This document shows positions 24,506-54,510 of a stretch of 64,000 nucleotides of DNA, one piece after another; positions within the stretch are counted from its first letter, which is position 1, and every line of letters starts with the position of its first letter. The translations under genes and the position numbers were made by a program. The stretch comes from Propionispira raffinosivorans DSM 20765 (GTDB taxonomy: Bacteria; Bacillota; Negativicutes; Selenomonadales; Selenomonadaceae), in contig NZ_KB905854.1 of NCBI RefSeq assembly GCF_000381065.1, forward strand, positions 1-64,000, given 5' to 3'. A model generated the notes under the pieces. It was given only the letters and a program-made list of their open reading frames with translations, was not told the origin of the DNA and did no database searches.

Positions 24506-24537
24506 GATCGAGATCAATAGAAAGAAGGCTGGTTCGC

Positions 24538-26483: not shown

Positions 26484-26521
26484 ATAATAAAATATACTCA
26501 GTTATATAAGGGGTGTTCATA

Positions 26522-29602: not shown

Positions 29603-30357
29603 AATTTGGGCGGTTAGACAAACTTCAGCATGGTTATAATGCAATGACAACTTGTGATAGCAAAATGTTAATGGATATTGGCTATCAGGTAATGGAACCA
29701 AAAGAAATTTTGAGCTTTATTGATACAACGAAAGAAACAGCTTTTGTTATTTTAACTGGACAGATCAGCATAACTTGGGATGAAAAAACTGAGACTATGG
29801 AACGCAGATCTTTGTTTGATGAAAATCCATATTGTTTGCATGTACCAGTCAATACACAAGTACAAATAAAAGCAGTATCAGCAGCAGAAATATTGATTCA
29901 AAAAACAGAAAATGAAAAATTGTTTCCAGCTAAATTTTATCGTCCTGCAGACGTGCAGTGCGATCAATTTGGTGCAGGAATGTGGAATGGTACGGCTGAA
30001 CGAACCGTTCGAACAATTTTTGATTATACCAATGCACCCTATTCAAATATGGTCAACGGCGAAGTTATCAACCGCCCAGGACGCTGGTCCGGCTATATTC
30101 CGCATACGCATCCGCAGCCTGAAGTATATACATATAAATTTGATAAACCGCAGGGATTTGGTTGTTCTCTTATCGGTGAGGAAGCATTTAAAATTTCACA
30201 TAATAGTTGGTCGGCGATTCCGGGGGGAGATAGTCATCCTCAGGTTACGGCACCTGGTTATGCAATGTGGTATAGCTGGATGATTCGCCATTTACCAGGA
30301 GATCCATGGAATAAAACAAGAACAGATGATCCGGATCATGTATGGTTATTGGAGTAA
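29599..30357 (+). CDS. iolB: 5-deoxy-glucuronate isomerase
   Basis: IolB is a cupin isomerase that turns 5-deoxy-glucuronate into 2-deoxy-5-keto-gluconate. The 252-residue product shows two cupin halves. The diagnostic stretches are FGAGMWNGTAERTVRTIFD, RPGRWSGYIPHTHPQPEVYT with the metal-binding His cluster, and DSHPQVTAPGYAMWYSW. The start codon overlaps the iolC stop, so the two are translationally coupled. It is somewhat shorter than the Bacillus protein (about 270 residues), mainly in the N-terminal half. Confidence 0.92.
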   Translation: MKFGRLDKLQHGYNAMTTCDSKMLMDIGYQVMEPKEILSFIDTTKETAFVILTGQISITWDEKTETMERRSLFDENPYCLHVPVNTQVQIKAVSAAEILIQKTENEKLFPAKFYRPADVQCDQFGAGMWNGTAERTVRTIFDYTNAPYSNMVNGEVINRPGRWSGYIPHTHPQPEVYTYKFDKPQGFGCSLIGEEAFKISHNSWSAIPGGDSHPQVTAPGYAMWYSWMIRHLPGDPWNKTRTDDPDHVWLLE

Positions 30358-34287: not shown

Positions 34288-34393
34288 ATTAAATTACAAT
34301 TAAGCTAAGCGAAATTTTTCGGGGAATAGGATGATCAAATGACAAAAAAATTATAAATATACAGATTAGTAGAATGAATTGGAGGAAAATGAA

Positions 34394-35281
34394 ATGGCAG
34401 ATATAACATTGGGTATTGCACCGATTGCTTGGACAAACGATGATATGCCCGATCTTGGAAAAGAAAATACATTTGAACAATGTGTCAGCGAAATGGCCCT
34501 GGCTGGCTTTACAGGGTGCGAAGTTGGTGGTAAATATCCACGAGATACAGAGGTTTTACAAAAAGCACTAAAACTTCGCAATATGTCAATTGCCAGCGCT
34601 TGGTTTAGTTCATTTTTAACAACGAAACCATTACAAGAAACAGTAACGGCTTTTATTGAACATCGGGATTTTCTCTTTGCCATGGGCGCAAAGGTTATTG
34701 TTGTTGCTGAACAAGGGCATAGTGTTCAGGGAATGCTCAATACACCCGTATTTGCGGGGAAACCATATTTTACAGATATGGAATGGGACAAACTTGTCCA
34801 AGGACTTAATAAACTAGGTGAACTGGCAAAAGAAAAGGGCATGAAAGTCGTGTATCATCATCATATGGGGACTGGTGTCCAAACTGAAAGTGAAATTGAT
34901 AAACTGATGGAAATGACAGATCCAGCATTGGTATATCTTTTATTTGATACGGGTCATTTAGTCTGTTCAGGTGAAGATTATCTGGGCATTCTCCAAAAAT
35001 ACTTACCGCGTATCCAGCATATCCATTTAAAGGATATTCGTAAGAATATAGTTAAACAGGTTAAGGAAAAAAATATGAGTTTCCTTGATGGCGTTCGAGC
35101 TGGTATGTTTACGGTTCCTGGCGATGGAGATGTTGATTTTGCGCCAGTATTTGACCTTGTTAATAAAAGTCAGTATCAGGGTTGGTATATTGTCGAAGCA
35201 GAACAAGATCCAGCTAAGGCAAATCCTCTGGAATATGCACAAATAGCAAGAAAATATATCAGAGAACAGGCAAAATTGTAA
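34394..35281 (+). CDS. iolE: Inosose dehydratase
   Basis: IolE dehydrates 2-keto-myo-inositol to the dione opened by IolD. It is a TIM-barrel protein of the xylose-isomerase-like superfamily. The ATG at 34394 follows GGAGGAAAATGAA and gives [20 protein letters not shown]. The product is 295 residues. Family features are [55 protein letters not shown] and [13 protein letters not shown], with metal-binding Glu, Asp and His in these stretches. A TGATCAAATGA at 34332 fits 10 of 11 positions of the IolR 11-mer, but as a single site it is weak evidence. Confidence 0.93.
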
Positions 35282-38753: not shown

Positions 38754-38766
38754 GTATGCTACATAC
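38754..38766 (+). promoter_or_regulatory. Second GTATGCTACATAC operator, upstream of the dehydrogenase
   Basis: An exact copy of the 13-base palindrome seen before gntR, again with TATGCT in a -10-like position (38755-38760). It is 68 bases upstream of the dehydrogenase start. It ties the acid-sugar cassette to the GntR regulator. Confidence 0.75.
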
Positions 38767-38833
38767 AGGTTCATATAAAAAAGTAGTGTACAGCCTATCA
38801 TTTATAAATAGAAAATATCAAGGAGGTCTTTTT

Positions 38834-39730
38834 ATGTCAAAAGTAGGTTTTGTTGGATTAGGAATTATGGGAAAACCAATGGTATTGAATTTATTAAAAG
38901 CAGGAATTGAAACAACGGTATATGATATTAATCCGGCAGCGGTTGATGCATTAAAAGAAGCTGGGGCAAAAGGTGCAGTTTCGCCGAAAGAATTAGCAGG
39001 CGGAAATGATGTTGTTATCACAATGGTTCCAAATGCTAAGATTGTTGGCATTTTACTAGAAGGTCCTGATGGAATTTTAGCTGGTGTAAAACCAGGCACT
39101 GTCATTGTCGATATGAGTTCGGTTTCACCTGTGGATTCAAAATATTTTGCGGAACTGGCAAAGAGCAAACAATGTCCTTTCCTTGATTCTCCAGTAAGTG
39201 GTGGGGAGCCCGGTGCCATAAATGCAACGTTAGCATTTATGGTCGGTGGTGATGAAGCTGTTGTGGAACAAATCAGAGATGTTTATGAAGCAATGGGAAC
39301 TTCAATTACAGTAGTTGGACCAAATGGTAGTGGTTCGGTAGCAAAGCTTGCGAACCAGATCATGGTAAATCTTAATATTGCCGCGGTTTCCGAAGCTTTG
39401 ATTTTAGCCCAAAAAGCCGGCGCAGATCCGAAGAAAGTATATGAAGCAGTTCGCGGCGGACTTGCGGGCAGTACCGTACTCGATGCAAAAGCACCGATGA
39501 TGTTCAATCGTAATTTTAAACCAGGCGGAACGCTTGCAATCAATTTAAAAGATATTACCAATGTTATGGATACCGCCAAAAGTCTTGAAGTACCGTTGAT
39601 TCTTACAAGCCAGTTACAGCAAATTATGCTGAGCCTAAAATCCGATGGACATATTATGGATGACCATAGTGGTATTGTTCAATTTTATGAAAAAATTTCT
39701 GGCGTGGAAGTAAAAACTCCACAAAAATAA
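38834..39730 (+). CDS. garR: 2-hydroxy-3-oxopropionate reductase / beta-hydroxyacid dehydrogenase (GarR type)
   Basis: A 298-residue NAD(P)-dependent dehydrogenase of the 3-hydroxyisobutyrate dehydrogenase family. The ATG at 38834 is preceded by AAGGAGG. The Rossmann motif is VGFVGLGIMGKPMVLNLLKAG, the substrate motif is DSPVSGGEPGAINATLAFMVGG, and the catalytic lysine is in GSGSVAKLANQIMV; VRGGLAGSTVLDAKAPMMFNRNF is also very GarR-like. GarR interconverts tartronate semialdehyde and glycerate. Relatives next to DUF1537 kinases (LtnD) instead oxidise threonate-type acids. The kinase/aldolase neighbours make the second role possible. A hairpin-element copy separates it from the kinase gene. 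Confidence 0.87.
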   Translation: MSKVGFVGLGIMGKPMVLNLLKAGIETTVYDINPAAVDALKEAGAKGAVSPKELAGGNDVVITMVPNAKIVGILLEGPDGILAGVKPGTVIVDMSSVSPVDSKYFAELAKSKQCPFLDSPVSGGEPGAINATLAFMVGGDEAVVEQIRDVYEAMGTSITVVGPNGSGSVAKLANQIMVNLNIAAVSEALILAQKAGADPKKVYEAVRGGLAGSTVLDAKAPMMFNRNFKPGGTLAINLKDITNVMDTAKSLEVPLILTSQLQQIMLSLKSDGHIMDDHSGIVQFYEKISGVEVKTPQK

Positions 39731-39746
39731 ATTGTGAGTCAATTCT

Positions 39747-39880
39747 AGATAAGTTGCATTAAATATTTTGTATGGCAATCGTCAGGAAAGGGGTGTAGGG
39801 TTGAGTGGCGTTACGGAGGAAGCAAACGATGCCCTATACCTCTTTCCTAGCAGCCTAATAAGCTGCAATTTATATATAGC
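39747..39880 (-). repeat. Dispersed hairpin element, copy 3
   Basis: This copy is inverted relative to copies 1, 2 and 4. Read on the minus strand it has the strongest inner stem: GGAAAGAGGTATAGGGC pairs with ACCCTACACCCCTTTCC, leaving the loop core GTTTGCTTCCTCCGTAACGCC. The TGACGATTGCC block and the right end TTTAATGCAACTTATC are conserved, and the left end (GCTATATATAAATTGCAGCTT) is partly complementary to it. It lies between two genes of one apparent cassette. Confidence 0.87.
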
Positions 39881-39964
39881 TTATAAATTATTTCAGCCTG
39901 AGCTGGCAGAATCGTCTCACTAGTCTTAGGCTGAAAATTAAATGAAAGACAGAGGAGCTTTATC

Positions 39965-41389
39965 ATGGCAAAAATACTCAAAAGTGAATTATTTAAAGAT
40001 ATTCCAGTAATCGACGAAACAATGGTCGATGACACATTAAAAGATGTATTAAAAGCATTTGGTAAAAAAATTGTGGTTTTAGATGATGATCCAACAGGGG
40101 TTCAAACGGTACATGATATTTCGGTCTATACAGATTGGTCTGCAGAAAGTATTGCTGCCGGTTTTGCCGAAAAAAATTCGATGTTCTTTATCTTAACGAA
40201 TTCACGCGCTTTTTCAACAGCCGAAACCGAACTTGTTCATCGTGATATTGCGAATCGTATAGCAAGCGAAGCTAAAAAAACGCAGCAGGAATTTATGATT
40301 ATCAGCCGTAGTGATTCTACGCTGCGGGGACATTATCCATTAGAAACACAGATACTTGAAAGCACAGTTGCAAAAAATTCCGGTGTACAGACGGATGGTG
40401 AAGTTATCATGCCATTTTTTAAAGAAGGCGGACGTTTTACAATCAATAATATTCATTATGTACAGGAAGATGAATATTTAGTTCCAGCAGGTGAAACGGA
40501 ATTTGCGAAGGATAAAACTTTTGCTTATACAGCTTCTAATCTAGGTGAGTATATAGAAGAGAAAACAAAAGGAGCATACAAAGCGGCGGATACAACGTAT
40601 ATATCGCTTACAGATATCAGAAAATTTAAAATTCAAGAAATTACCAATCAACTCTTAAAAGTAGAAAATTTCAATAAAGTTATTGTTAATGCTGTCGATT
40701 ATGTTGATGTGAAAGTGTTTGCAATTGCTTTGATTCAAGCGATGCGTAAGGGAAAAACATTTATGTTTAGAACTGCTGCTGCATTTACTAAAGTCATTGG
40801 TGGCGTTACAGATCAACCGCTTTTAACGAAAAAAGAATTGGTTGAAACGGGGAACACAAATGGTGGTCTGGTAATTGTTGGTTCACATGTACAAAAAACA
40901 ACCCAGCAGTTAGCTGAACTACAAAAATGTGATTATATTAAATTTATTGAATTTAACCATTTATTAGTTTTGCAGCCAGAAAATTTAGAACTTGAATTAA
41001 AACGCATTATTAGTGAAGCCGAAAGCGATATTAAAAACGGACAAGCGGTTGTTGTCTTTACTGGCAGAAAAAGATTGGATGTTGGTTCGGAGGAAGAATC
41101 ACTCAAAGTATCTGTTAAGATTTCCGAAGCAATTACCAGTATCGTTCAGCGTTTGTCAATCAAACCTGGGTTTTTAATAGCAAAAGGCGGTATTACATCT
41201 AGTGATGTTGGAACAAAAGGTCTTGGCGTGAAAAAAGCGCAAGTTTTAGGACAGGTGAAACCAGGTATTCCCGTTTGGAAAACAGGCAGTGAAAGTAAAT
41301 TCCCTAATATGTCTTATATTATTTTCCCCGGCAATGTTGGAGCGGTTGAAACACTGCGTGAAGTAGTAGACATGCTGAATGATCGTTAA
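39965..41389 (+). CDS. DUF1537 four-carbon acid sugar kinase family protein
   Basis: The 474-residue protein has the two DUF1537 domains. The N-terminal substrate domain shows VLDDDPTGVQTVHDISVYTD and ISRSDSTLRGHYPLETQIL. The C-terminal nucleotide-binding domain shows AKGGITSSDVGTKGLGVKKA, GIPVWKTGSESKFPNMSYI and the glycine-rich IIFPGNVG. Members phosphorylate D-threonate, L-threonate or D-erythronate (DtnK, LtnK, OtnK). The exact acid cannot be read from the sequence. GAGGAGC precedes the start. The class II aldolase follows after 32 bases, so the kinase product is probably cleaved by it. Confidence 0.88.
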   Translation: MAKILKSELFKDIPVIDETMVDDTLKDVLKAFGKKIVVLDDDPTGVQTVHDISVYTDWSAESIAAGFAEKNSMFFILTNSRAFSTAETELVHRDIANRIASEAKKTQQEFMIISRSDSTLRGHYPLETQILESTVAKNSGVQTDGEVIMPFFKEGGRFTINNIHYVQEDEYLVPAGETEFAKDKTFAYTASNLGEYIEEKTKGAYKAADTTYISLTDIRKFKIQEITNQLLKVENFNKVIVNAVDYVDVKVFAIALIQAMRKGKTFMFRTAAAFTKVIGGVTDQPLLTKKELVETGNTNGGLVIVGSHVQKTTQQLAELQKCDYIKFIEFNHLLVLQPENLELELKRIISEAESDIKNGQAVVVFTGRKRLDVGSEEESLKVSVKISEAITSIVQRLSIKPGFLIAKGGITSSDVGTKGLGVKKAQVLGQVKPGIPVWKTGSESKFPNMSYIIFPGNVGAVETLREVVDMLNDR

Positions 41390-41421
41390 ACTTTTAATTT
41401 TATTTTAATGAAGGAGTTTTT

Positions 41422-42264
41422 ATGTTACTGAATTTAAAAGATATATTAGAGTATGCCAAGGTCAATCAATCGGCGATTGGTTCCTTCAATGTTTATAATT
41501 TAGAATCTATTCAGGCTGTCGTACAGGCAGCCTTGGCTGCAAAACAACCTGTTATTATATCGTTTGGCGAATCGTATACTTCACATGCACCAATCGAAGT
41601 TATTGCCGAAATTGTCAAAATATACTGTATTAAATCAGATGTGCCATTTTGTTTGCACTTAGATCATAGCAAAGAATTAGCAACGATAATGAAAGCAATT
41701 CGTGCTGGCTTTACCTCGATCATGTATGATGGATCGGCTTTACCCCTTAATGAAAATATACGAAGAAGTCGCCAAGTTGTGGAATTGTCGCATTTGGTGG
41801 GTGTGAGTGTTGAAGGTGAATTAGGGTATATGAATAATGAAGATGGAACATCACCGGATGGCTTATGTTTGGCGGAGGGTTACACAACCGTTGCAGCGGC
41901 TAAAGAATATACGGAGCAATCTGGAGTAGATGCATTAGCTATCGCAATTGGTAATGCGCATGGTATCTATAAAGGTATTCCCACCCTTGATTTTCTAAGA
42001 CTGGAAGAGATTAAGCGAACTATCAAGGTGCCGATTGTTTTGCATGGCAGCTCTGGTATTCCATTGGATTCTCTGCGTAAGGCAATTTCCTTAGGTGTGC
42101 GGAAAATCAATATTAATACGGAAGTATCAACAAAAGGAATTCAAACGGCACGATCATTTTTAGCAGACCATCTCGATAAAAATACTCGTTTCGAGATATT
42201 GGCAAAAGCCGTTGAAGGCGCCATGTCTCAAACCGTAGCAGACTATATCAATTTGTTTAAATAA
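41422..42264 (+). CDS. Class II (fructose-bisphosphate aldolase family) aldolase
   Basis: A zinc-dependent aldolase of 280 residues, paralogous to IolJ at 27709. It has IGSFNVYNLESIQAV, the zinc-site FCLHLDHSKELATIM, GFTSIMYDGSALPLNENI, SVEGELGYMNNEDG, AIAIGNAHGIYKG and VLHGSSGIPLDSLRKAIS. The kinase next door suggests that its substrate is a phosphorylated acid sugar and that a product is dihydroxyacetone phosphate or glyceraldehyde phosphate. In the known threonate/erythronate pathways the last step is done by OtnC, a class II aldolase of a different (AraD-like) fold, so this would be a variant. Confidence 0.85.
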   Translation: MLLNLKDILEYAKVNQSAIGSFNVYNLESIQAVVQAALAAKQPVIISFGESYTSHAPIEVIAEIVKIYCIKSDVPFCLHLDHSKELATIMKAIRAGFTSIMYDGSALPLNENIRRSRQVVELSHLVGVSVEGELGYMNNEDGTSPDGLCLAEGYTTVAAAKEYTEQSGVDALAIAIGNAHGIYKGIPTLDFLRLEEIKRTIKVPIVLHGSSGIPLDSLRKAISLGVRKININTEVSTKGIQTARSFLADHLDKNTRFEILAKAVEGAMSQTVADYINLFK

Positions 42265-42344
42265 ATGAGATCGACAATGCACCATATGTTAAAATTATGT
42301 TTTTACAAATGCGTAGGCGTTCGGCGATATAGGAGGATTTTGTG

Positions 42345-43679
42345 ATGGAAACCACATTTTTAGTTTTTACTTTGTTTACAGCAATCTTGTTAGTTGTATT
42401 TTTGATAATGAAAATGCATTTGCATGCATTTGTTAGTTTGATTGTTGCTTGTATGTATGTAGGGTTTATGACAGGGATGCCTTTGGTTAAGATTTGTGCA
42501 TCCATTGAAGCGGGAATGGGCAGTACGCTTGGCTTTTTGGCGACGGTTCTGGGGCTTGGCAGTATTTTAGGTAAAATGCTGGAAACTTCAGGCGGGGCTG
42601 AACGTTTGGCACGGACGTTGATTGATAAGCTCGGGAAGCAGCGGGCAAATTGGGCTATGATGGTCGTTGGTCTGATTACAGGGATTCCTGTGTTTTTTCA
42701 AGTAGGATTTGTATTATTGATACCATTGGTTATTAGTGTAGCTAGGGCTACAGGGATGTCAATTGTAGCAATCGGTATTCCAATGGGCGTATCTCTGCAG
42801 ATTGTTCATTGCATGCTGCCGCCGCATCCGGCTGCTATGGCCATTGCTGCGACACTCAATGCTGATATTGGTAAAGTGATTATGCTGGGGCTTTTGGTCT
42901 GTGTTGTATCCGCTACAATTGCCGGACCAATTTGGACGAAATTCATTAAAAATGGTATTAAAGTAGATCTTCCATCCTTAACGACACCAATAAAAGAAAT
43001 AGCGGATAAAGATCTGCCTGCTTTTGGCATTACTTTATTTACGATTTTATTACCAATGCTTATTATGGTTTCAAAAACAATTTTTGATTTAAGTTCATTA
43101 AAAACATCAGAATTTGCTCCGATTGTGAATTTTATCGGTAATCCGATTACCGCCTTAATGATTTCAGCTTTTTTTGCTTATTGGTCTTTAGGCTTGGCAC
43201 GTGGCTTTAAAATGCCGGAACTTTTAAAATTTACCGATCAATCCTTTGCTCCGGTTGCGGGTATATTGCTTGTTATTGGTGCTGGCGGGGCGTTTAACCG
43301 AGTATTGATTGATAGTGGCCTAGGCGTGGAACTTGGCAAAGTTCTTACGGGGCTAGACCTAAGTCCATTGATTCTAGCTTGGATCGTAGCGGCAGTTATG
43401 CGCTTTTCCGTTGGTTCGGCTACCGTTGCAATGATGACGTCAGCTGGTATAGTAATGCCAATGCTGGTGCAATATCCGAATCTTGATCCGGCTTTTGTTG
43501 CTTTAGCTGTAGGCTCGGGCGCAATCTGTTTTTCACATGTAACAGATTCTGGATTTTGGATTGTTAAAGAATATTTTGGCTTAACGGTTGCCGATGCATT
43601 AAAATCTTATACATTAGCGACTTGTATTGCATCTCTGGTTGCAATTAGCATGACAGTCATGTTATCAAAAATTATTTAA
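42345..43679 (+). CDS. GntP-family permease
   Basis: An integral membrane transporter of 444 residues with about 12-13 hydrophobic segments. GntP features are FLATVLGLGSILGKMLETSGG, GIPVFFQVGFVLLIPL, HCMLPPHPAAMAIA, VMRFSVGSATVAMMTSAGI and CFSHVTDSGFWIVKEYFG. Members import gluconate, threonate-like acids or glycerate with protons. AGGAGG lies eight bases before the ATG at 42345. It is the last gene of the acid-sugar cassette and is followed by a bidirectional terminator. It probably brings in the acid that the DUF1537 kinase phosphorylates. Confidence 0.92.
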   Translation: METTFLVFTLFTAILLVVFLIMKMHLHAFVSLIVACMYVGFMTGMPLVKICASIEAGMGSTLGFLATVLGLGSILGKMLETSGGAERLARTLIDKLGKQRANWAMMVVGLITGIPVFFQVGFVLLIPLVISVARATGMSIVAIGIPMGVSLQIVHCMLPPHPAAMAIAATLNADIGKVIMLGLLVCVVSATIAGPIWTKFIKNGIKVDLPSLTTPIKEIADKDLPAFGITLFTILLPMLIMVSKTIFDLSSLKTSEFAPIVNFIGNPITALMISAFFAYWSLGLARGFKMPELLKFTDQSFAPVAGILLVIGAGGAFNRVLIDSGLGVELGKVLTGLDLSPLILAWIVAAVMRFSVGSATVAMMTSAGIVMPMLVQYPNLDPAFVALAVGSGAICFSHVTDSGFWIVKEYFGLTVADALKSYTLATCIASLVAISMTVMLSKII

Positions 43680-43826: not shown

Positions 43827-44852
43827 TTATAAACCATAAACAGCGCGGATTTCTTTAAGTGAAACGGGACGATTTTCCGCTACGGATTTTTGTGCTGCTA
43901 AACCAATAAGTACGGGTTCTAGCCCATCTTGGGCAGTTACCAGAGTTGGCGTATCTTTGACAATTGCATTAACAAAGGCTGCAATTTCATCAGCATAGGC
44001 ATTCATGTAACGTTCCAAAAAGAAAAAGAGTGGTTTTTCAGCTACTACACCATTTTTGCCACTGAATACTGCATTGGAACTTGAATCATTTTGAATGGAA
44101 ATTGCCCCGTTTGTTCCAAATACTTCGGCTCGTTGGTCATAACCATAACAAGCTTGACGGCAGTTATCAATGACAGCTGTTGCACCATTGGCAAGTTTTA
44201 AAGTTATGATGGCAGTATCGACATCACCGGCTTGACCGATAGCAGGGTCGACTGTAACCGAGCCTGCAGCATAAACTTCTTCTACTTCCGAGCCGGATAG
44301 GTAGCGGACCATGTCAAAATCATGAATGGTCATATCGAGGAACATACCGCCAGAAATTTTTACATAGTCAATGGATGGTGGTTCCGGGTCGCGTGAGGTG
44401 ATTTTTATAATTTGTTGCTTGCCGATTTGACCAGCGGCTACCGCTTCCTGAATTGCTTTAAAGTTATGGTCAAAACGACGATTAAAACCTACTTGATATT
44501 TTTTGCCGGAAGTTTCAACTACTTTAAGAACTTCCTTGATTTTTTTAATACTGTGATCGATTGGTTTTTCACAAAAAACGTGTTTACCAGCTTGGAGTGC
44601 TTCAATAGAAAGAGGTGAATGCTGATCGGTTGATGCACAGATTAATACAGCATCAATTGTTGGATCCGCCAATATTTTTTTATAATCCGTATAGGTTTCT
44701 TTTATGCCGAGGGAGTTTGCCCAAGCTATTGAGTTTTCATTCAAGAATGGGTCTGCTACCGCCTTTACTTGAGCATTTTTTACATGATTGGAAATACTTT
44801 CTCCATGAACGCGGCCGATGCGGCCTACGCCAATAATACCAATGTTAATCAT
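43827..44852 (-). CDS. iolG: Inositol 2-dehydrogenase (Gfo/Idh/MocA family)
   Basis: IolG oxidises myo-inositol to 2-keto-myo-inositol, the first step of the pathway at 26.5-35.3 kb. I start at the ATG whose first base is 44852 because GAAAGGCGG precedes it and the protein then begins MINIGIIGVGRIGRVHGESI. The product is 341 residues. The nucleotide motif GVGRIGR, CEKPIDH with the catalytic lysine, and GGMFLDMTIHDFDMVRYLSG with the catalytic Asp and His (DMTIHDFD) are all present. It is transcribed alone and divergently from an AraC regulator, away from the main operon. Confidence 0.9.
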   Translation of the reverse strand: MINIGIIGVGRIGRVHGESISNHVKNAQVKAVADPFLNENSIAWANSLGIKETYTDYKKILADPTIDAVLICASTDQHSPLSIEALQAGKHVFCEKPIDHSIKKIKEVLKVVETSGKKYQVGFNRRFDHNFKAIQEAVAAGQIGKQQIIKITSRDPEPPSIDYVKISGGMFLDMTIHDFDMVRYLSGSEVEEVYAAGSVTVDPAIGQAGDVDTAIITLKLANGATAVIDNCRQACYGYDQRAEVFGTNGAISIQNDSSSNAVFSGKNGVVAEKPLFFFLERYMNAYADEIAAFVNAIVKDTPTLVTAQDGLEPVLIGLAAQKSVAENRPVSLKEIRAVYGL

Positions 44853-45189
44853 AATTTTTATTCCGCCTTTCAAAATAAGTTCCGTTTTTGCGAAGCTCCT
44901 TGATTTTGTTTGCCAGTATTCATTTTACTGGCTATTATCTTTGATTTTTGGTAATATAAGAATAGAGTGATTCAAAAGATGATAACTTTATTGTTATATT
45001 ATATGTTTGTTTTGATTATCTTTATGTTTAAGTATACGGTGAAATAACAAAGATTACCTCTAGTATTTTGCTTTTTTTGCAAAGAAAAACATTGATTTTT
45101 CAGCTCTTTTAATGAGTTTGCTAAATATACTCCAAATTATTGCTTTGTTTGTAAATAAATATTAGAATTTTCGATTAACTATAGAGTGG
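44853..45189. promoter_or_regulatory. Divergent promoter region between iolG and an AraC gene
   Basis: The spacer is AT-rich and must hold both promoters. On the minus strand TAATCAAAACA (45008-45018) fits 10 of 11 positions of the IolR 11-mer consensus, so iolG could belong to the same regulon. No other site is clear. Confidence 0.4.
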
Positions 45190-46089
45190 GTGATTCGTTT
45201 GCTGCAGTATTTTGTCAAAGAAAAATTGTCATCGATTTTTCTGGGAGATCAAAATCCGGAACTTTTATACGTATGTGAAGTCGATCCTGTGCATGCTAAA
45301 ATGCCGCGGACAATGCATGTACATGAAGATCGGGTGGAAATTGTTTTGATTGTAGAAGGTTTTGGTGACTATACGATTCATAATAATAAATATCATGTAC
45401 AAAAAGGCGATTTATTATTTTTTAATAGTGGTGTTATTCATGATGAGGCAGTTTGTGAAGATCAGAATATTTTAACATACTGTGCTGCTATTAAAAATCT
45501 TCAAATTACGGGTTTGGAAAAAAATGAAATTTTATCGAATTTGATGTGTCCGGTTATTCACTTGGACCAAGATTTTGAAAAAGTAAAACAAATATTTTTG
45601 CTGCTTTGCGATACAGTGAAAGAAGAAACGAACTGCAAGACGGAAATGAGCCATTACCTGATGCGGGCTTTCGTTGTGAAAGTTCATGATTGTATCGAAA
45701 AATATGAAGTGCCGATGGCACCAATTCCGTATAATTTAGGTATTCAGATTAAACAGTATATTGATGCGCATTATCTAGAAGATTTGAATTTAAGTAAAAT
45801 TTCGGAGGCTTTACATATAAATACATATTATTTATCACATGTTTTTAAAGAAATGGTAGGTTATTCTCCCATGCAATATGTAATGCGCCGTCGTGTGGGC
45901 GAAGCACAAAACTTGTTACTCAATACGGAGGATAGTATTACAAAAATCGCCATGTGGGTGGGTTATAATAACTCTAATTATTTTCAACTGGTTTTTAGTA
46001 CAATTGTTGGAATGTCACCGGGACGTTATCGTAAATCGTGGGTGAAAGAAACGGACACCCCAGAATTTTTTGATAAAACAGGAAAATAA
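45190..46089 (+). CDS. AraC-family regulator with N-terminal cupin
   Basis: A 299-residue regulator. The N-terminal cupin domain (about 35-110) has MHVHEDRVEIVLIVEGFGDY and KGDLLFFNSGVIHDEAV. The C-terminal pair of helix-turn-helix motifs (about 185-290) has LNLSKISEALHINTYYLSHV, YSPMQYVMRRRVGEAQNLL and ITKIAMWVGYNNSNYFQLVF. The start is GTG at 45190 or TTG at 45199; neither has a strong ribosome site. It is closely related to the AraC protein encoded on the minus strand just downstream, and is divergent from iolG. A sugar or polyol ligand is likely but not proven. Confidence 0.88.
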   Translation: MIRLLQYFVKEKLSSIFLGDQNPELLYVCEVDPVHAKMPRTMHVHEDRVEIVLIVEGFGDYTIHNNKYHVQKGDLLFFNSGVIHDEAVCEDQNILTYCAAIKNLQITGLEKNEILSNLMCPVIHLDQDFEKVKQIFLLLCDTVKEETNCKTEMSHYLMRAFVVKVHDCIEKYEVPMAPIPYNLGIQIKQYIDAHYLEDLNLSKISEALHINTYYLSHVFKEMVGYSPMQYVMRRRVGEAQNLLLNTEDSITKIAMWVGYNNSNYFQLVFSTIVGMSPGRYRKSWVKETDTPEFFDKTGK

Positions 46090-46170: not shown

Positions 46171-47034
46171 CTATTTAGAAGAATTATTTAACCATGATTT
46201 ACGGTACTTTCCGGGAGGCATACCAACCATGGTATTGAAGACTACTTGAAAATAATTTGAATTGTTGTATCCGCTCATTAAGGCAATCTGTGTGATACTG
46301 TAATCGGTATTGATGAGGAGGTTTTGGGCTTCACCAATACGGCGATGAATAACATATTGCATGGGTGAGTATCCCACTATTTTTTTAAATACATGAGATA
46401 GATAATATGTATTAACACGAATGGCGGTTGAGATGGTTGAGAGATTAATATCTTCGAGATAATGTTCATCAATATATTCCTTGATTCGTAAGCCGAGGTT
46501 ATAATCTTCACCTTCTAACACGACTTTATTATTATCGATTAAGATCCGGCATAGGACTAATAAAGACCGCATTGTGCAGTTCCCAATTTCGGCGGCCCCA
46601 GGTTCTAAATTATGTTCAACGAAATAAGCCAAAATTGAAAAAAACTGATGTATGCGTGAAAAAAGCATGCCGCTTTGGAGAACTGGACACATAGTATTGG
46701 GCAACAATTGATTTTCAGCTAAACTTTTTAAACGAAGTTTTTTGATGCCAATACAATAGGTACTTATAGAATTCTGTTCATTGTTTTCATTGTGAAGAAT
46801 ACCGCTGTTGATAAAAATAAGATCTCCTTTTTTTATTTCATAGGAGTGATTATTAATGGTATAGGTTCCCTGCCCGTGACGAATAAAAATAATTTCTGCT
46901 AAATCGTGATGAACATGGAATGTTCGAGGCAGGGGCGTGGTCGTTTGACTTGTTTTGCCGATGTAGGCTAAAGCCGGTACGCTGTTCAGCTCAAAAATTG
47001 TGGTGAATGTCTCCTGGGCAAAATATTGTGACAT
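46171..47034 (-). CDS. AraC-family regulator with N-terminal cupin
   Basis: A 287-residue paralogue of the convergent AraC protein at 45190. The cupin half has FHVHHDLAEIIFIRHGQGTY and KKGDLIFINSGILHNEN. The DNA-binding half has INLSTISTAIRVNTYYLSHV, YSPMQYVIHRRIGEAQNLL and ITQIALMSGYNNSNYFQVVF. I start at the ATG at 47034, which follows AGAAGGGAGAT and gives MSQYFAQETFTTIF; a longer frame has no ribosome site. It is divergent from the organophosphate-type transporter, which makes that transporter and the phosphoesterase its likely targets. Confidence 0.88.
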   Translation of the reverse strand: MSQYFAQETFTTIFELNSVPALAYIGKTSQTTTPLPRTFHVHHDLAEIIFIRHGQGTYTINNHSYEIKKGDLIFINSGILHNENNEQNSISTYCIGIKKLRLKSLAENQLLPNTMCPVLQSGMLFSRIHQFFSILAYFVEHNLEPGAAEIGNCTMRSLLVLCRILIDNNKVVLEGEDYNLGLRIKEYIDEHYLEDINLSTISTAIRVNTYYLSHVFKKIVGYSPMQYVIHRRIGEAQNLLINTDYSITQIALMSGYNNSNYFQVVFNTMVGMPPGKYRKSWLNNSSK

Positions 47035-47410
47035 AAAAATATCTCCCTTCTGATTAATTATATAGACACGGTTTGTACTATTGAATGCTGCAGTTTTTAA
47101 GATTTTACAAAAAGAGCAAAAATTTAAAGTATTTTGTCTTTTTTGCTTATAAAATAGCAAGAATTCAAAGATACAGTATTCAAACTGTCTCTATAATGAG
47201 AATCAGAGGACAAGAAGTACACATAATATAATATTAAATGTTTCAAAATATGATCATGATGAAACTATTTATATTATACTAACAAAAATGCCAGAGAAAA
47301 GCCACTTAATTTTCTATTGAAAATTAATATCTTGCGCATAACTGACAAAGATCTTATGTATCATTTACTTACTGTATGATTATTGAAATTTTAAGAGGAG
47401 GTCTATTTTT
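47035..47410. promoter_or_regulatory. Divergent promoter region between AraC and transporter genes
   Basis: About 375 AT-rich bases between divergent genes. It must hold both promoters and probably AraC sites, but I see no unambiguous -10/-35 pair and no strong repeat. Confidence 0.35.
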
Positions 47411-48802
47411 ATGTTAAAATGGTTTTTAACAGGTAAGCAGCAATCCAAAATCACAGATCCAACGATGGTGAGAAAAATGTTTCGTAGTGCCAGAATACAA
47501 GGTGTCACAGCGATGATTCTTGGGTATGGCATGTATTATGTTATGCGAATGACCTTGGGGGTTGTAAAAAAACCAATGATTGAAGCTGGTTTTACACCGA
47601 CAGAACTTGGACAAATCGGTGCAGCCATGCTTATTGCTATCGCTGTCGGGAAATGTTTGAATGGGTTTATTGCGGATCGCTGCAATATAAAAAAAATTGT
47701 GCCAATTGGGTTATTGGGGGCGGCAATTGTAAATTTCATTTTGGGATTTTCTAGCCAATATTGGATTTTTTTAGCTTTATGGTTTGTAAATGGCTGGTTT
47801 CAATCGATGGGGTCAGCACCATGTATTGTTTCTTTGGCGCAATGGTATTCAAAAAGCCAGCTAGCCACGTATTATGGTGTATTCAGTATTGCTCATTATA
47901 TCGGAGAAGGTGCAACATATTTTGGAACGGCGATGCTTGTGGTTGCTTTTGGCTGGCATGCAGCCTTTTTTGTTCCGGGAATTGCTTGTATTGTTTTAGC
48001 CTTTATCATGTATCGTTATATGTATGATCGTCCCGAAGCTTATGGACTGCCTTCAGCAAATGAATTTGAAGGTGAAGTTCTTCAGGAAAAAAAAGAAAAA
48101 GAAAAAACAACACGGGATGCACAATTAGAAGTTATAAAAAACCCATATGTCTGGTTGATTGCTCTTTCGGCAACTTGTCTTGGGATAGCAAGATACTCAA
48201 TGAGCAGCTGGGGGGTTATATTCTTACAAGAATATAAAGCGTATTCTCTCGTGACAGCTGGTAGTATAATGGCTTTATCACCTTTAATGGGAGGTGTTGG
48301 TTCATTCTTTTCTGGCATTATTTCGGATAAGATATTCAAAGCAAATCATGCTTTGACGACGATTGTTTTTGGTTGTATGATGCTGGTTGGAATTATAGGT
48401 TTTTGTTATACACCAGCAGGCAGTCCTTGGATTGATATGCTATGGATTTCGGTTTTTGGATTTGGGTTAGGGGTTATTTTGTGTTTTGTTGGCGGCATGC
48501 TTGCGGTGGATCTTTGCTCACGTAAAGCGACAGGTGCCGCCATGGGAACAATTGGGTTATTATCTTATGGTGGTGCAGCGGCACAAGATTTGATTAATGG
48601 GTTACTTATGGATGCCGCTAAGACGGTTGTAGATGGTCAGGTGATTTATCATTTTGAAAATATCATGCTTTTTTGGATTGGTGCAGTTGCGCTTATGACA
48701 ATTCTTATTGTTCCGACGCTATGGGCTAAAAAAGTAAAGCACAATGAAAGTTCCAACAATAAGAATTTAGATGAGAAACTGCAAAAGGAAACGCAGGCAT
48801 AA
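47411..48802 (+). CDS. MFS organophosphate:phosphate antiporter family protein (UhpC/GlpT type)
   Basis: A 463-residue membrane protein with 12 predicted helices. Features of the organophosphate:Pi antiporter subfamily are GYGMYYVMRMTLGVVKKPMI in helix 1, the IGAAMLIAIAVGKCLNGFIADR stretch (helix 2 and the 2-3 loop), FVNGWFQSMGSAPCIVSLAQ and ARYSMSSWGVIFLQEYKAY. Characterised relatives exchange glycerol-3-phosphate, hexose-6-phosphate or phosphoglycerates for phosphate, or act as a sensor (UhpC). A phosphoesterase gene follows after about 75 bases on the same strand, so the pair probably imports and dephosphorylates an organophosphate. AGAGGAGGTC precedes the ATG. Confidence 0.88.
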   Translation: MLKWFLTGKQQSKITDPTMVRKMFRSARIQGVTAMILGYGMYYVMRMTLGVVKKPMIEAGFTPTELGQIGAAMLIAIAVGKCLNGFIADRCNIKKIVPIGLLGAAIVNFILGFSSQYWIFLALWFVNGWFQSMGSAPCIVSLAQWYSKSQLATYYGVFSIAHYIGEGATYFGTAMLVVAFGWHAAFFVPGIACIVLAFIMYRYMYDRPEAYGLPSANEFEGEVLQEKKEKEKTTRDAQLEVIKNPYVWLIALSATCLGIARYSMSSWGVIFLQEYKAYSLVTAGSIMALSPLMGGVGSFFSGIISDKIFKANHALTTIVFGCMMLVGIIGFCYTPAGSPWIDMLWISVFGFGLGVILCFVGGMLAVDLCSRKATGAAMGTIGLLSYGGAAAQDLINGLLMDAAKTVVDGQVIYHFENIMLFWIGAVALMTILIVPTLWAKKVKHNESSNNKNLDEKLQKETQA

Positions 48803-48877
48803 AGATTAAAATTTTAACAAGGCTGTACATCAGGGCTTTACACAAATTAGACGATGCAGTAACGGGGAGGCAGCAAT

Positions 48878-51799
48878 ATGAATAGCAATTTTTTTATACT
48901 AAATGGACCGTATTTATTGGACCCGGCAGCATCACATATGACGATTGCCTGGGAAACAAACTCTCCGGTGGATATTCAAGTGATTTATGGTGAACAAGAA
49001 TTTTTAAATCAGACGATGACACCGAATTTTGAACGTGGAATTCCATATGAAGATAATAATAAGGGAAATTGTCTTTATACAGCAGTTTTACGTGATTTAA
49101 AGCCGGATACAAAATATATGTATCAAATTAAATTGCATTCTGGTGCGATGGAATCAGGAACTTTTAAAACGTTAGAAAAACAACCAAATGAACTAAAAAT
49201 TGTAATGCTAAGTGATTCACATCTTTTTCATACAGAAAAACAGTTTTCAGATATGGTGGAACGGATAAAGCCGGAATTTATCATCCATAGTGGAGATATT
49301 TCTTTTGGAACAGGCTACCAACATGAACAATATGTAAATAATTGGTTTAAGAAAATACCAGAGTTGTTAAAGCATATACCCGTTTTTTATATTCCGGGTA
49401 ATCATGATGATGGACCATTTTATGATGAGTTTTTTACAAAACCACAGGCGAAAACATGTCGATGTGATGAAACCGGTCGCACATATTCGTTTGATTGCGG
49501 CAAAACACATTTTACGCTAGTAGATAGCAACTCTTGGGGTCTGTTTGAAATGAATGCAATTAATTCTGGGGTGGAGGCAGATGCCAAAACAAAGCGGACC
49601 ATCCAGCAGACATTGAATTGGATTAAGCAGGATTTGGCGAGTGAAGCTGCGGCAAACGCAGCTTGGCGTGTACTGGTTCTTCATCACCCGTATACAGATG
49701 AATTTAATAATCGTTATATTGTGCCGGTTGCTGAAGCTTATAATGTAAATTTGGTGATCGGGGGGCACCTGCATTATTATGTAAAAACAGTATCAATTGA
49801 TCCTAAAGTTGGTGCTAAAACAGTTTATATTAGTCAAGGCAGTACGCAGGAACCGGAATGTGAGCTGGATACGGGCGGAGGAGAACATCGCCTATTAGAA
49901 GAGTTTCCGGAAGTTGTAGCGATGGGAAAAAGTAATTACACATTACTTACTATTGAAGAAGAACATTTGCAATGTGAAACATATGGATTTTCACAGCAAT
50001 CAGGAAATGAAGCACTTGTGGATCGTGTGCTTTTAGTTCATGATGAACCTAAAATTTCAATTTCCAAAGTTGAAATTCGCCGTATTGATAATAATGGAAA
50101 GGTTGAAATTAAAGGAATTGCTGAAAATATTGGTCGGGGTTTGGCCGAGGTGACATTACAGCTTTTTGACAATAATGTGGAAAATATCATGAATTTATTT
50201 GGACCTGTGGACAAAGAAAGAGTCATTGTTTTAAATGAAAAAGAAAAGCGCAGCTTTACAATGCTGTATAGAGCAGTTAATCAAGGTCAGCATGAAATTA
50301 AAGTCCAAAATGTCAGTGAAAATATCACGGTTTTTGAGCCAGAACAGTTGACATTTCAGTATATGAAACTTACGTTAGATCATGTTAAACATGCAAGTCT
50401 GCTTATGGCAAGCATTGAAGCAACGAATAATTTGGATCGGGAGATTTTTGTTCCCGTCCATTTATATATTGATCAAAGAATTGCTGAAACTAAAAATATA
50501 TTTTTTCGGGGGCACGAAAAAAAACAGGTTGATTTTTGTTATAAATTTTATCAGGGTGGAAGTTATCAGGTTAGTATTGCGGATCAATTGCCGCGTGATA
50601 TTAAAATTCCTGGACCGATTCGGATCATACCAAGAATTCAGGATAAATCAGGGCAGGGAAACTATGCACTTTTGCATGGCAATCCAAAAGTGATCACAAG
50701 ACCCGACAAAGTTGAGATTTGTCTGGAGCAATATGGTGATTATATTGAGATACCGGCGCGACCCAATTTGCGAGTAAAGAATGCTTTTAGTGGAATGGTT
50801 TGGGCAAATGTAGATCGTTTGGCCAAGCAGAACGAAATGGGGCATAATCCTTTAATGGTAAAGGGTAAATCGGTTGGCTGGGGAGCAACTTATTTAATGA
50901 GGATGGTTGTTGAACGTGCGGGTGGACTCAAATGGGGGACTTGCCATGATATTACAGAATATTCATGGCAGGGCGGTATGGTCAACTTGAACCAATGGAC
51001 ACAATATACATTGACTTTTGATAAGCAAATAGGGGGGAATTCATATTGTAATGGAAAACGTGTGGCCCATGTTTCAGGAATTGCTGTTGATACCAAACTG
51101 CGAAATTGGGAAAATGAACCAATTTTTATTGGATACTCCTATATAGGTCATGTGATAACAGAAATTGATAGACCTAAATATTTTACGCATCTTCCGGCAA
51201 AAATAAGTCAAGTCCGCTTTTATAAAGATCATTTATCAGAACAAGAAAATCGACAGATTTATGAACAGCCGCAAAAAGCTGGCATAAAGGCTGAGAAAAT
51301 GGCAGTGTGGCTTGATTTTCATGATATTTTAACAGTGGGGACACATACAACGGAATGGTGTCATCCAGCTGTATTTGATCCAGCATATAAGACTGAAAAA
51401 AAATATTGGAACTTTAAACAGTTGAAAACAAAAGCAAAACTCCCGTTGCAAGCAGGAATGAAAGCGAGTGTTGAGGTATCAGATGATGGTGCTTCCATTA
51501 AAGCACGTCAACAAATTATTCTTAAAAATGGAACAAACTATATTGTTTTAGAAGGTTTGCCACCAGCTCAGTACATTCGTATTGTCACTGAATTTTCAGC
51601 TGAAGTAGGGTCAGAAGGTACATTTATTCCTGAATTACAGGAATATCAAATCAGTGCTTTCAATGAAACGGATTTTACCGAAATGTTTTGGTCAACACAA
51701 GAAGATTGGCAACGGGGCAAGTTTACCGGGGCAGTTGGGTTTGAACCAATTGACAGATTATCTGATTTTCCAGAGTATACGGATGTTATACACGGTTGA
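48878..51799 (+). CDS. Multidomain metallophosphoesterase (purple-acid-phosphatase-like) with LamG-like domain
   Basis: A 973-residue protein. An N-terminal fibronectin-III-like domain of the purple acid phosphatase type spans about 1-95. The calcineurin-like catalytic domain (about 105-300) has all metal motifs: MLSDSHLF, HSGDISFG, IPGNHDDG, LHHPYTD and GGHLHYY. A beta-rich segment follows (about 385-500). A concanavalin/laminin-G-like domain spans about 630-800 (YIEIPARPNLRVKNAFSGMV, FIGYSYIGHV, ISQVRFYKDHLS), and another beta-rich domain ends the protein. There is no signal peptide or membrane segment, which is unusual because these domains are normally extracellular. Paired with the organophosphate antiporter, it probably acts on an imported phosphate ester. 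Substrate unknown. Confidence 0.82.
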   Translation: MNSNFFILNGPYLLDPAASHMTIAWETNSPVDIQVIYGEQEFLNQTMTPNFERGIPYEDNNKGNCLYTAVLRDLKPDTKYMYQIKLHSGAMESGTFKTLEKQPNELKIVMLSDSHLFHTEKQFSDMVERIKPEFIIHSGDISFGTGYQHEQYVNNWFKKIPELLKHIPVFYIPGNHDDGPFYDEFFTKPQAKTCRCDETGRTYSFDCGKTHFTLVDSNSWGLFEMNAINSGVEADAKTKRTIQQTLNWIKQDLASEAAANAAWRVLVLHHPYTDEFNNRYIVPVAEAYNVNLVIGGHLHYYVKTVSIDPKVGAKTVYISQGSTQEPECELDTGGGEHRLLEEFPEVVAMGKSNYTLLTIEEEHLQCETYGFSQQSGNEALVDRVLLVHDEPKISISKVEIRRIDNNGKVEIKGIAENIGRGLAEVTLQLFDNNVENIMNLFGPVDKERVIVLNEKEKRSFTMLYRAVNQGQHEIKVQNVSENITVFEPEQLTFQYMKLTLDHVKHASLLMASIEATNNLDREIFVPVHLYIDQRIAETKNIFFRGHEKKQVDFCYKFYQGGSYQVSIADQLPRDIKIPGPIRIIPRIQDKSGQGNYALLHGNPKVITRPDKVEICLEQYGDYIEIPARPNLRVKNAFSGMVWANVDRLAKQNEMGHNPLMVKGKSVGWGATYLMRMVVERAGGLKWGTCHDITEYSWQGGMVNLNQWTQYTLTFDKQIGGNSYCNGKRVAHVSGIAVDTKLRNWENEPIFIGYSYIGHVITEIDRPKYFTHLPAKISQVRFYKDHLSEQENRQIYEQPQKAGIKAEKMAVWLDFHDILTVGTHTTEWCHPAVFDPAYKTEKKYWNFKQLKTKAKLPLQAGMKASVEVSDDGASIKARQQIILKNGTNYIVLEGLPPAQYIRIVTEFSAEVGSEGTFIPELQEYQISAFNETDFTEMFWSTQEDWQRGKFTGAVGFEPIDRLSDFPEYTDVIHG

Positions 51800-51830: not shown

Positions 51831-51865
51831 AGCCGCTGTAAAAATTTTATAGCGGCACTTTTTTT
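51831..51865 (+). terminator. Terminator after the phosphoesterase
   Basis: GCCGCTGTAAAA and TTTTATAGCGGC form a stem with one mismatch, followed by TTTTTTT after two bases. Confidence 0.85.
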
Positions 51866-51908: not shown

Positions 51909-51974
51909 AAATAAAGCAGCCATTTGAACAGTCTGTTAAGTAACCAGTAAATAGTTCAAAATGGCTGCTTTATT
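51909..51974 (-). terminator. Terminator overlapping the stop of the hypothetical gene
   Basis: AATAAAGCAGCCATTTGAAC and GTTCAAAATGGCTGCTTTATT pair with one bulge around a 24-base loop. It can serve the minus-strand gene ending at 51974. Confidence 0.75.
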
Positions 51975-52639
51975 TATTTTTCATCAGGGAGTGTTAAATT
52001 TTCCTTAAGTACGGAAACTTCGTCGGCAATGGTGAGAGGGGCAGGGGCGCCGATCGTCATGATTCGTTCGAGTATTTGTACTTGTTCATCATGGCTTTTG
52101 GTCTTGAGGTTAGCTGGATCAACAGCAGCTTTTGACTTTGTTATAACATCTGTTTGCATTGTAATATAATTACTCGTTTTCTCAATTATTTTTGCGGTTA
52201 GAGTATAATTTGTATCTTCTAAACTTTCGGGAGGTTTTTGCTGGAAAAATTTATTTTTAAGTGTAAGCGATTGTTCTTGTAATTGCGTCAATCGTAGATA
52301 GACGGTTTGAATGCTGATGTCATCATTTTTAAAAGACTGTAGTATTTTATCATATTGCTGCCAGTTACTATCCAGAAGGTCGATGTCTTTTTTATAATTG
52401 GTATACCAATCAATAAAAGTGTGCTGCTGTTGGAGAATTTGATTTTTTTGTTCAATTGTCAGTGCTGTTTCTGGTGTTGTAACGTGCGTCATCAAGACAA
52501 AAATAGATGCACCCAAAATGCTAATAAGAAAGAGCGCAATCATTTTTTTGCTGCGGAATTCAATGTAAATAGCATACCCAATCAAGATTAGGGTAATGAA
52601 AATTGCAGTTTTGGCTGAGGTGTAGGATAAAATTTCCAT
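51974..52639 (-). CDS. Hypothetical membrane protein with coiled-coil C-terminus
   Basis: A 221-residue protein that I do not recognise. Two hydrophobic segments near the N-terminus (about 8-26 and 31-51) are followed by a polar, helix-rich region (about 60-220) with heptad-like stretches such as QKNQILQQQHTFIDWY and LRLTQLQEQSLTLKNK. This suggests a small inner-membrane protein with a helical domain on one side. A minus-strand AGGAGAT precedes the ATG. It is divergent from the ABC transporter gene and shares a spacer of about 165 bases with it, but nothing in the sequence shows that they work together. Confidence 0.75.
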   Translation of the reverse strand: MEILSYTSAKTAIFITLILIGYAIYIEFRSKKMIALFLISILGASIFVLMTHVTTPETALTIEQKNQILQQQHTFIDWYTNYKKDIDLLDSNWQQYDKILQSFKNDDISIQTVYLRLTQLQEQSLTLKNKFFQQKPPESLEDTNYTLTAKIIEKTSNYITMQTDVITKSKAAVDPANLKTKSHDEQVQILERIMTIGAPAPLTIADEVSVLKENLTLPDEK

Positions 52640-52806: not shown

Positions 52807-54510
52807 ATGAATAAGAAGTTCTTGGCTGATTTTTGGCGGCTGTTTAAAGGATATTGGAGTTCAGATGAAAAGTGGAAGGCGCGAGGTTTATTGGGGGCCG
52901 TTATTGTACTTAATTTTGCCGCAGTTTATATTTTAGTGTTGCTCAATCAATGGTATAACACTTTCTATACTGCCTTGCAGGATTATAATTATGAAGCATT
53001 CTGGCCGCTGATTGGGCGGTTCACGTTGCTGGCTGTTGGTCATATCGCCATTGCTGTTTATGCAATTTATCTTCGGCAAATGGTCGAGATAAAGTGGCGG
53101 ACCTGGATGACAACTCGTTATTTAGAGCATTGGATGGATAAGCAGACTTATTATAAATTACAAATCTTAGACTATGATACAGATAATCCCGATCAACGTA
53201 TTTCGGAAGATATCAATCAGTTTGTGAGCTTGACATTACAGTTGGCATTGGGTTTTTTGAAACAAACCGCTACATTAGGTGCTTTTGTCATGATCCTTTG
53301 GAATTTATCAGGAATCATTCGGGTGCCGTTTGGTGGTTACGAATTTATCATATATGGATATATGGTATGGTTATCTTTGATTTATGCAATTATGGGTACC
53401 TATTTAACGCACCGGGTAGGTCGCGAATTGATTCATTTAAATTATGATCAGCAGCGTTATGAAGCTGATTTTCGTTTCAATATGGTGCGAGTTCGAGAAA
53501 ATGGTGAAAGTATAGCCTTTTATCGTGGCGAAGAGCCCGAAAAAACTGGGTTTTCGGAACGGTTTGCTAAGGTCATAAAAAATTATTGGAGTTTGATGCG
53601 TCGAGAAAAAGCCTTGACCTGGTTTACAGCCGGGTATGGACAATTGGCGATAATTTTCCCGCTCTTATTTGCTGCACCGCGTTATTTTGCCAAAGAAATG
53701 GCTTTGGGTGGGCTTATGCAGACGACCAGTGCTTTTGGTAGAGTACAGGATGCTTTATCATTTTTTGTTGATGCCTATACATCCGTAGCGCAATGGCTTG
53801 CCGTTGTAAAACGTCTGGTCGGTTTTACGGAACATATGCAATTGGTGGAAAATGTGCAATCAGACTTGCAATTTAAGAAAAATGGTCAAGTGATTGCGAT
53901 TGAGGATTTAACGGTGGACCTTCCCAACGGGCAGGCACTTTTGAAAAATTGCAGCTTTGTCTTAAAGCAAGGTGATAAGCTTTTGATTACGGGAGCTTCT
54001 GGATGTGGGAAGAGTACTTTGATGCGGACGATTGCGGGTATTTGGCCATTTGGTAAAGGCAATATTACCATTCCTTTAGGAACGAGCCGGTTGTTCTTAC
54101 CACAGCGGCCATATTTGCCATTGGGAAATCTTAGAACTGTCTTGTTTTATCCCGAGAAAAACATTGCGGTGAGTGATCATGAAATCCAGAATGTTTTGCA
54201 GCTTTGCCAGTTGGGACAATTGATCAATAGGCTGGATGTTGTGGAGGATTGGTCGAGAATTTTATCTTTGGGAGAACAGCAGCGCATTGCCTTTGCGCGC
54301 GTATTACTGATTCGTCCAGATTGGACATTTTTAGATGAAGCTTCATCGGCATTGGATGAAGCAACTGAAAAAATCATGTATCAACTGCTGGCTGAAAATT
54401 TGCCACAGATGGTGATGATAAGTATTGGTCATCGTGATACGCTCAAACAGCATCATCAAACAAAGCTGCATCTTACGGGTGATGGTGCTTTCATATTAGG
54501 AAATATATAA
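52807..54510 (+). CDS. ABC transporter, fused permease-ATPase of the SbmA/BacA-like YddA family
   Basis: A 567-residue half transporter. The membrane domain of the ABC_membrane_2 type (about 1-330) shows NQWYNTFYTALQDYNYEAFW, VEIKWRTWMTTRYLEHWM and DNPDQRISEDINQF, which is the SbmA/BacA/YddA signature. The ATPase domain follows with Walker A ITGASGCGKSTLMRTIAG, the signature LSLGEQQRIAFARVLL and Walker B WTFLDEASSALDE. SbmA and BacA transport peptides and lack an ATPase; YddA-type proteins have one and their substrate is poorly known. The ATG at 52807 has a modest ribosome site. It ends at a terminator hairpin that is also the edge of an insertion-sequence remnant. Confidence 0.9.
   Translation: MNKKFLADFWRLFKGYWSSDEKWKARGLLGAVIVLNFAAVYILVLLNQWYNTFYTALQDYNYEAFWPLIGRFTLLAVGHIAIAVYAIYLRQMVEIKWRTWMTTRYLEHWMDKQTYYKLQILDYDTDNPDQRISEDINQFVSLTLQLALGFLKQTATLGAFVMILWNLSGIIRVPFGGYEFIIYGYMVWLSLIYAIMGTYLTHRVGRELIHLNYDQQRYEADFRFNMVRVRENGESIAFYRGEEPEKTGFSERFAKVIKNYWSLMRREKALTWFTAGYGQLAIIFPLLFAAPRYFAKEMALGGLMQTTSAFGRVQDALSFFVDAYTSVAQWLAVVKRLVGFTEHMQLVENVQSDLQFKKNGQVIAIEDLTVDLPNGQALLKNCSFVLKQGDKLLITGASGCGKSTLMRTIAGIWPFGKGNITIPLGTSRLFLPQRPYLPLGNLRTVLFYPEKNIAVSDHEIQNVLQLCQLGQLINRLDVVEDWSRILSLGEQQRIAFARVLLIRPDWTFLDEASSALDEATEKIMYQLLAENLPQMVMISIGHRDTLKQHHQTKLHLTGDGAFILGNI

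Follow-up and report, generated by a model that had tools for sequence, protein, structure and literature searches.

A Candidate Inositol Monophosphate Uptake and Hydrolysis Module Associated with Phytases and Inositol Catabolism in Negativicutes

Introduction

Plant food stores its phosphorus mainly as phytate, and the only characterized gut genus reported to degrade this compound fully, through inositol to fermentation products, is Mitsuokella (PMC12482443; PMC7618129). M. jalaludinii converts phytate to inositol 2-monophosphate (Ins(2)P) and then to inositol, with a doubling time of 3.4 h on phytate vs. 7 h on inositol (PMC7618129). The work is credited to a periplasmic phytase and an inositol transporter, and the available portions of the two reports name neither a phosphatase nor an importer for Ins(2)P (PMC12482443; PMC7618129). 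The phytase of Mitsuokella multacida is called PhyAmm (PMC3981807). Here, we analyze two adjacent genes at positions 47411-51799 of a 64,000-nucleotide stretch of the anaerobic fermenter Propionispira raffinosivorans DSM 20765 (Negativicutes; contig NZ_KB905854.1, positions 1-64,000), herein referred to as the window. These genes encode a transporter of the organophosphate antiporter (OPA) type and a LamG-containing metallophosphoesterase, and with a probability of about 0.68 they form a module for the uptake and hydrolysis of inositol monophosphate.

Known substrates of the OPA class are glycerol-3-phosphate, hexose phosphates, and phosphoglycerate. No OPA member for inositol phosphate was described in the literature searched. 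In M. jalaludinii, MJ_0380, referred to as an inositol transporter, is induced eightfold on phytate.

Antiporter and Phosphoesterase Encoded by the Gene Pair

Both open reading frames named in a preliminary description of this DNA were recovered, on the same strand and separated by 75 bases:

47411-48802, plus strand: OPA-type antiporter of the major facilitator superfamily (MFS), proposed inositol-monophosphate/phosphate exchanger (Pfam MFS_1; GlpT/UhpC/PgtP-like; phosphate-site residues conserved)
48878-51799, plus strand: predicted cytosolic metallophosphoesterase with a purple acid phosphatase (PAP) N-domain, beta-sandwich linkers, LamG, and a C-terminal beta domain, proposed inositol-monophosphate phosphatase (Pfam domains, metal-ligand motifs)
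51832-51856, plus strand: intrinsic-terminator-like hairpin (11 pairs) followed by a T-run, the end of the two-gene operon (sequence)

The antiporter has 463 residues and matches Pfam MFS_1 with an E-value of 6e-46. The top NCBIfam models are PgtP, UhpC, and GlpT, all of them under their cut-offs (244.5 bits against 408 for the PgtP subfamily and 208 against 633 for GlpT; UhpT gives 140 against 497). Thus, the protein was ruled out as GlpT, UhpT, or PgtP proper; it is of the OPA type, yet is none of the named members. By similarity, it is an MFS protein nearest to GlpT, UhpT, UhpC, PgtP, and SLC37A4, and its closest solved structure is GlpT 1PW4 (E 7e-50). The phosphate site of GlpT includes R45, K80, H165, and R269, the two arginines being membrane-embedded. 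In the alignment to GlpT, these residues correspond to R46, K81, H162, and R261 of the antiporter; K replaces R46 in 4 of 20 relatives. The organophosphate antiporter type named earlier is confirmed, and an import of inositol monophosphate in exchange for phosphate is proposed here from genomic context.

The phosphoesterase has 973 residues with a PAP N-domain, Metallophos, and Laminin_G_3, each above its Pfam cut-off (64.8 bits against 21.5 for Metallophos, PF00149). The D-x-H, GD, GNH, H, and GHxH motifs of calcineurin-like metallophosphoesterases are present, with the metal ligands D113-x-H115, D140, N175-H176, H269, and H297-x-H299. Among 24 aligned copies, D113, D140, N175, H176, H269, H297, and H299 are invariant, and H115 is kept in all but three second copies, which have Q. 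Invariant residues also occupy 20% of the positions in LamG and 13% in the C-terminal domain, which suggests that both domains are maintained by selection and are not merely decorative. The inositol monophosphatase profile PF00459 (Inositol_P) is not among the Pfam matches of the phosphoesterase, and a Pfam search found no domain of protein tyrosine phosphatase-like (PTP-like) phytases (PF14566) in either protein.

As described previously, the phosphoesterase carries LamG and has no signal peptide. An in-frame stop lies six codons upstream of its ATG, and no hydrophobic leader was found in 30 of 30 homologous copies, in which the start codon shortly precedes a conserved GPYLL-type motif. A secreted protein with a missed start was ruled out on these grounds, and from the absence of any leader the enzyme is predicted to be cytosolic. 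The tyrosine of the GDxxY motif of PAPs is missing (GDISF, F143), and relatives carry F, L, P, Q, or R at this site. An AlphaFold2 model of the whole protein, built from six sequences, has a mean pLDDT of 54 and a LamG region too poor for use. In Foldseek, this low-confidence model best matches plant PAPs and the purple acid phytase of wheat, and these hits confirm only a PAP-like core. The wheat phytase match is no evidence for the substrate, because plant PAPs reach similar scores and the enzyme lacks the chromophore tyrosine.

Distribution and Co-occurrence with Phytate and Inositol Pathways

Among 200 related genomes, 25 encode a full-length phosphoesterase homolog. These 25 belong to one class, and they are exactly the genomes in which the antiporter clade (at least 66% identity) was found. 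The pair of P. arboris DSM 2179 shares 99-100% identity with that of the window. A scan of named genomes with six short peptide patterns returned 5 loci only. A broad spread over Bacillota was rejected, as only members of the same family turned up among 398 genomes drawn from across the phylum.

Phytases (PF14566) were found in 24 of the 25 pair-bearing genomes vs. 78 of the 175 others, and iolD above its cut-off in 22 vs. 16 genomes, respectively. Both together were found in 21/25 and 8/175 genomes (p 3e-18, a value that ignores shared ancestry). Within the family of the window alone, the corresponding numbers are 17 of 21 genomes with the pair and 6 of 100 without it (p 2e-12, likewise ignoring shared ancestry). 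One of the exceptions, G094, has an iolD gene truncated at a contig edge. PF00459 was found in none of the pair-bearing genomes and is infrequent overall (19 of 200 genomes). It is also absent from the genome of the window, and the same search was positive in 14 of 14 control genomes.

Several observations weigh against an inositol monophosphate module. Genomes G074 and G108 (99% completeness) carry the pair without a clear iolD match, no phytase was detectable in pair-bearing G111, and eight genomes combine the two pathways but lack the pair. PF00459 occurs in 2 of the 121 genomes of the window's family; its absence is thus general there and not specific to pair-bearing genomes. A PHP-family phosphatase stands between the two genes in several loci and could be the actual monophosphatase there, and substrate-binding residues are unreadable from the low-confidence model. 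In view of the two genomes without clear iolD, the pair may additionally function in phosphate supply. Carried further, this would make it a general organophosphate scavenging system located near inositol genes by happenstance, in line with the range of organophosphates taken by the OPA class. Such a system is quite improbable given the strong co-occurrence with both pathways and the presence of a phytase or iol gene near the pair in 20 of 25 genomes of several families.

Genomic Neighborhood of the Pair

Neighboring genes were identified by tblastn with reference proteins. In the 25 genomes, the antiporter and phosphoesterase genes are direct neighbors or have one or two genes between them. 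Recurrent neighbors are PTP-like phytases, single or in tandem, iol genes, a porin-like protein, a PHP phosphatase, an HD-like protein exported by the twin-arginine translocation (Tat) system, a chemoreceptor, and a divergent AraC-family regulator. Within 10 kb of the pair, 13 of 25 genomes have a phytase, with a chance expectation of about 3-6% per genome, and 20 of 25 have a phytase or an iol gene; the phytases near the pair are secreted. Among the five genomes with neither a phytase nor an iol gene near the pair, three carry the pair on contigs shorter than 10 kb. The association with PTP-like phytases and with iol genes recurs in at least ten genera.

The clearest arrangement is that of locus L046, where one strand carries iolC, iolB, iolD, iolG, iolE, the antiporter, PHP, phosphoesterase, and HD-Tat genes, two phytase genes, an iolA-like gene for methylmalonate-semialdehyde dehydrogenase (MMSDH), and the chemoreceptor gene; iolC, iolD, iolG, iolE, and the MMSDH gene score above curated cut-offs. 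In locus L031, the tandem phytase beside the pair is ~97% identical to PDB 3F41/4WU3, which we take to be the M. multacida enzyme PhyAmm. The idea that an imported inositol phosphate ester feeds inositol catabolism, put forward earlier from the flanking genes of the window, gains support from this linkage and from the two-pathway co-occurrence: the homologs are tied to phytases and iol genes, the opposite of unrelated pathways.

In L034 and L045-L048, the antiporter and phosphoesterase genes are separated by the PHP gene, which in L029 stands between two copies of the phosphoesterase gene; a PHP-domain protein is also encoded at 24427-25305 of the window. The PHP protein found with the pair could be the inositol monophosphatase, leaving the LamG phosphoesterase another role, e.g., on partly dephosphorylated inositol phosphates. 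This assignment is doubtful, since most loci, as well as the surroundings of the window pair, are without a PHP gene and the phosphoesterase is always present.

Three further proteins were observed in these loci. A protein with a Tat signal, ~390 residues long and weakly matching an HD domain (E 0.012), recurs beside phytases or the phosphoesterase (L029:15088-16272, L031:14124-15272, L046:11760-12929, L048:7818-8981). A porin-like protein with a signal peptide, a coiled-coil start, and no convincing Pfam match is encoded between or beside phytase genes (L028:9770-11092, L031:18375-19586, L057:7655-8767) and may be a channel through which phytate or inositol phosphates cross the outer membrane. 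A dCache chemoreceptor, ~53-57% identical between genera, is linked to phytase operons (L057:5450-7447, L046:17132-19129) and is a candidate receptor for inositol phosphates or phosphate.

Second Copies of the Phosphoesterase

Second copies of the phosphoesterase-LamG gene were found in clusters at L041:11751-16957, L042:9210-14334, and L043:3938-9061. These copies, which carry D-x-Q where the main copies have D-x-H, cluster with a different MFS transporter and a protein resembling phosphatidylinositol-specific phospholipase C (PI-PLC). The latter has GTHD, RFLDLR, and AAHRE motifs and matches PF00388 with an E-value of 0.02 in one copy; no signal peptide was found in the PI-PLC-X-like protein of these clusters. 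The arrangement looks like a sister module, presumably for a phosphatidylinositol-derived ester, possibly glycerophosphoinositol.

The presence of such clusters in three genomes, together with the frequent acceptance of diesters by calcineurin-like phosphoesterases, allows a similar reading of the main pair, in which glycerophosphoinositol or another phosphatidylinositol-derived ester is imported and the enzyme acts on the phosphodiester or on the derived Ins(1)P. This reading is unlikely, because only the D-x-Q copies are linked to a PI-PLC-like gene, and the main pair has phytases and iol genes as its recurrent partners. Of the two example substrates offered in the preliminary description, inositol phosphate is favored for the pair, and glycerophosphoinositol is more plausible for the paralogous cluster.

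Inositol Catabolic Genes of the Window

The window encodes the following regulators and inositol catabolic proteins:

46171-47160, minus strand: AraC-family regulator, divergent from the antiporter gene (Pfam)
45190-46089, plus strand: second AraC-family regulator (Pfam)
43827-44873, minus strand: iolG, inositol 2-dehydrogenase (TIGR04380, 474 bits, cut-off 355)
34379-35281, plus strand: iolE, inosose dehydratase (TIGR04379 above cut-off)
32638-34062, plus strand: sugar-porter MFS of the iol cluster, probable inositol transporter, distinct from the OPA antiporter (TIGR00879, PF00083)
30413-32359, plus strand: iolD (TIGR04377, 966 bits, cut-off 715)
29599-30357, plus strand: iolB (PF04962, KduI/IolB)
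28571-29602, plus strand: iolC (TIGR04382 above cut-off)
27709-28554, plus strand: iolJ-type class II aldolase, adjoining iolC (NF005288 above cut-off)
25368-26216, minus strand: DeoR-family regulator, IolR-like by position (PF00455/PF08220)

The iolG gene and two AraC genes beside the pair had been recognized before and are confirmed by these matches; a divergent AraC gene stands beside the antiporter in most relatives. The cluster of iolJ, iolC, iolB, iolD, sugar-porter, and iolE genes, located 12-20 kb upstream of the pair, had gone unmentioned; with the DeoR regulator it spans 25.4-35.3 kb of the window. As this cluster includes the sugar porter, free inositol is probably imported by a separate carrier, and a phosphorylated compound is the likely substrate of the OPA antiporter. 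Exported phytases were found on other contigs of the same genome, including a cluster with a phytase, a tandem phytase, a porin, and a chemoreceptor.

Additional genes were observed around the iol genes. Immediately before iolJ-iolC, an iron-containing alcohol dehydrogenase is encoded (26513-27673), which may reduce 3-oxopropionate to 3-hydroxypropionate, the product reported for Mitsuokella. Between the iol genes, positions 38756-43679 hold a four-carbon acid sugar kinase (SBD_N/NBD_C), a class II aldolase, and a GntP permease, preceded by a gene resembling that of 3-hydroxyisobutyrate dehydrogenase; this is a probable sugar-acid catabolic operon. Beyond the pair, a minus-strand open reading frame of 221 residues without a Pfam match (51974-52639) adjoins a SbmA/BacA-like ABC transporter gene (52807-54510).

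Discussion

We infer the substrate, transport direction, exchange partner, and enzymatic activity of the pair from its domains and genomic partners. In the proposed pathway, exported PTP-like (cysteine) phytases would act outside the cytoplasm and degrade phytate to Ins(2)P. This product would be imported by the OPA antiporter, probably in exchange for inorganic phosphate, and the cytosolic phosphoesterase would remove the last phosphate through its two-metal center. The freed myo-inositol would then be catabolized by the IolG-E-D-B-C-J pathway, whose genes are also in the window. That Ins(2)P specifically serves as the substrate of both proteins is slightly favored over its opposite. With odds a little better than even, an Ins(2)P antiporter and a cytosolic LamG Ins(2)P phosphatase unrelated to inositol monophosphatase (IMPase) complete anaerobic phytate catabolism in Negativicutes, the carbon of phytate entering the cell in phosphorylated form and not as free inositol. 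An exchange of Ins(2)P for phosphate would also fit the export and re-uptake of phosphate suggested by Pst induction.

The pair provides two concrete candidate genes for a step of phytate breakdown that has no named gene in the available portions of the Mitsuokella reports (PMC12482443; PMC7618129). If the proposed roles are true, the OPA family would acquire a new substrate and the LamG phosphoesterase family a function, and the faster growth of M. jalaludinii on phytate than on inositol could be explained.

The proposed reaction of the phosphoesterase has the same net outcome as that of IMPase/SuhB (PF00459), to which its sequence is unrelated. With PAPs and the purple acid phytases (PAPhy), the enzyme shares the PAP N-terminal domain and the metallophosphatase core, but it is predicted to be cytosolic, has no GDxxY tyrosine, and carries extra beta-sandwich, LamG, and C-terminal domains. 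The PTP-like phytases PhyAsr and PhyAmm of Selenomonas and Mitsuokella, which are taken to leave Ins(2)P, are neighbors of the pair and would act upstream of it; the proteins of the pair differ from them in fold and compartment. Finally, the antiporter has the MFS fold and the phosphate-site equivalents in common with GlpT, UhpT, and PgtP, but differs from them in having phytases and iol genes as its genomic partners.

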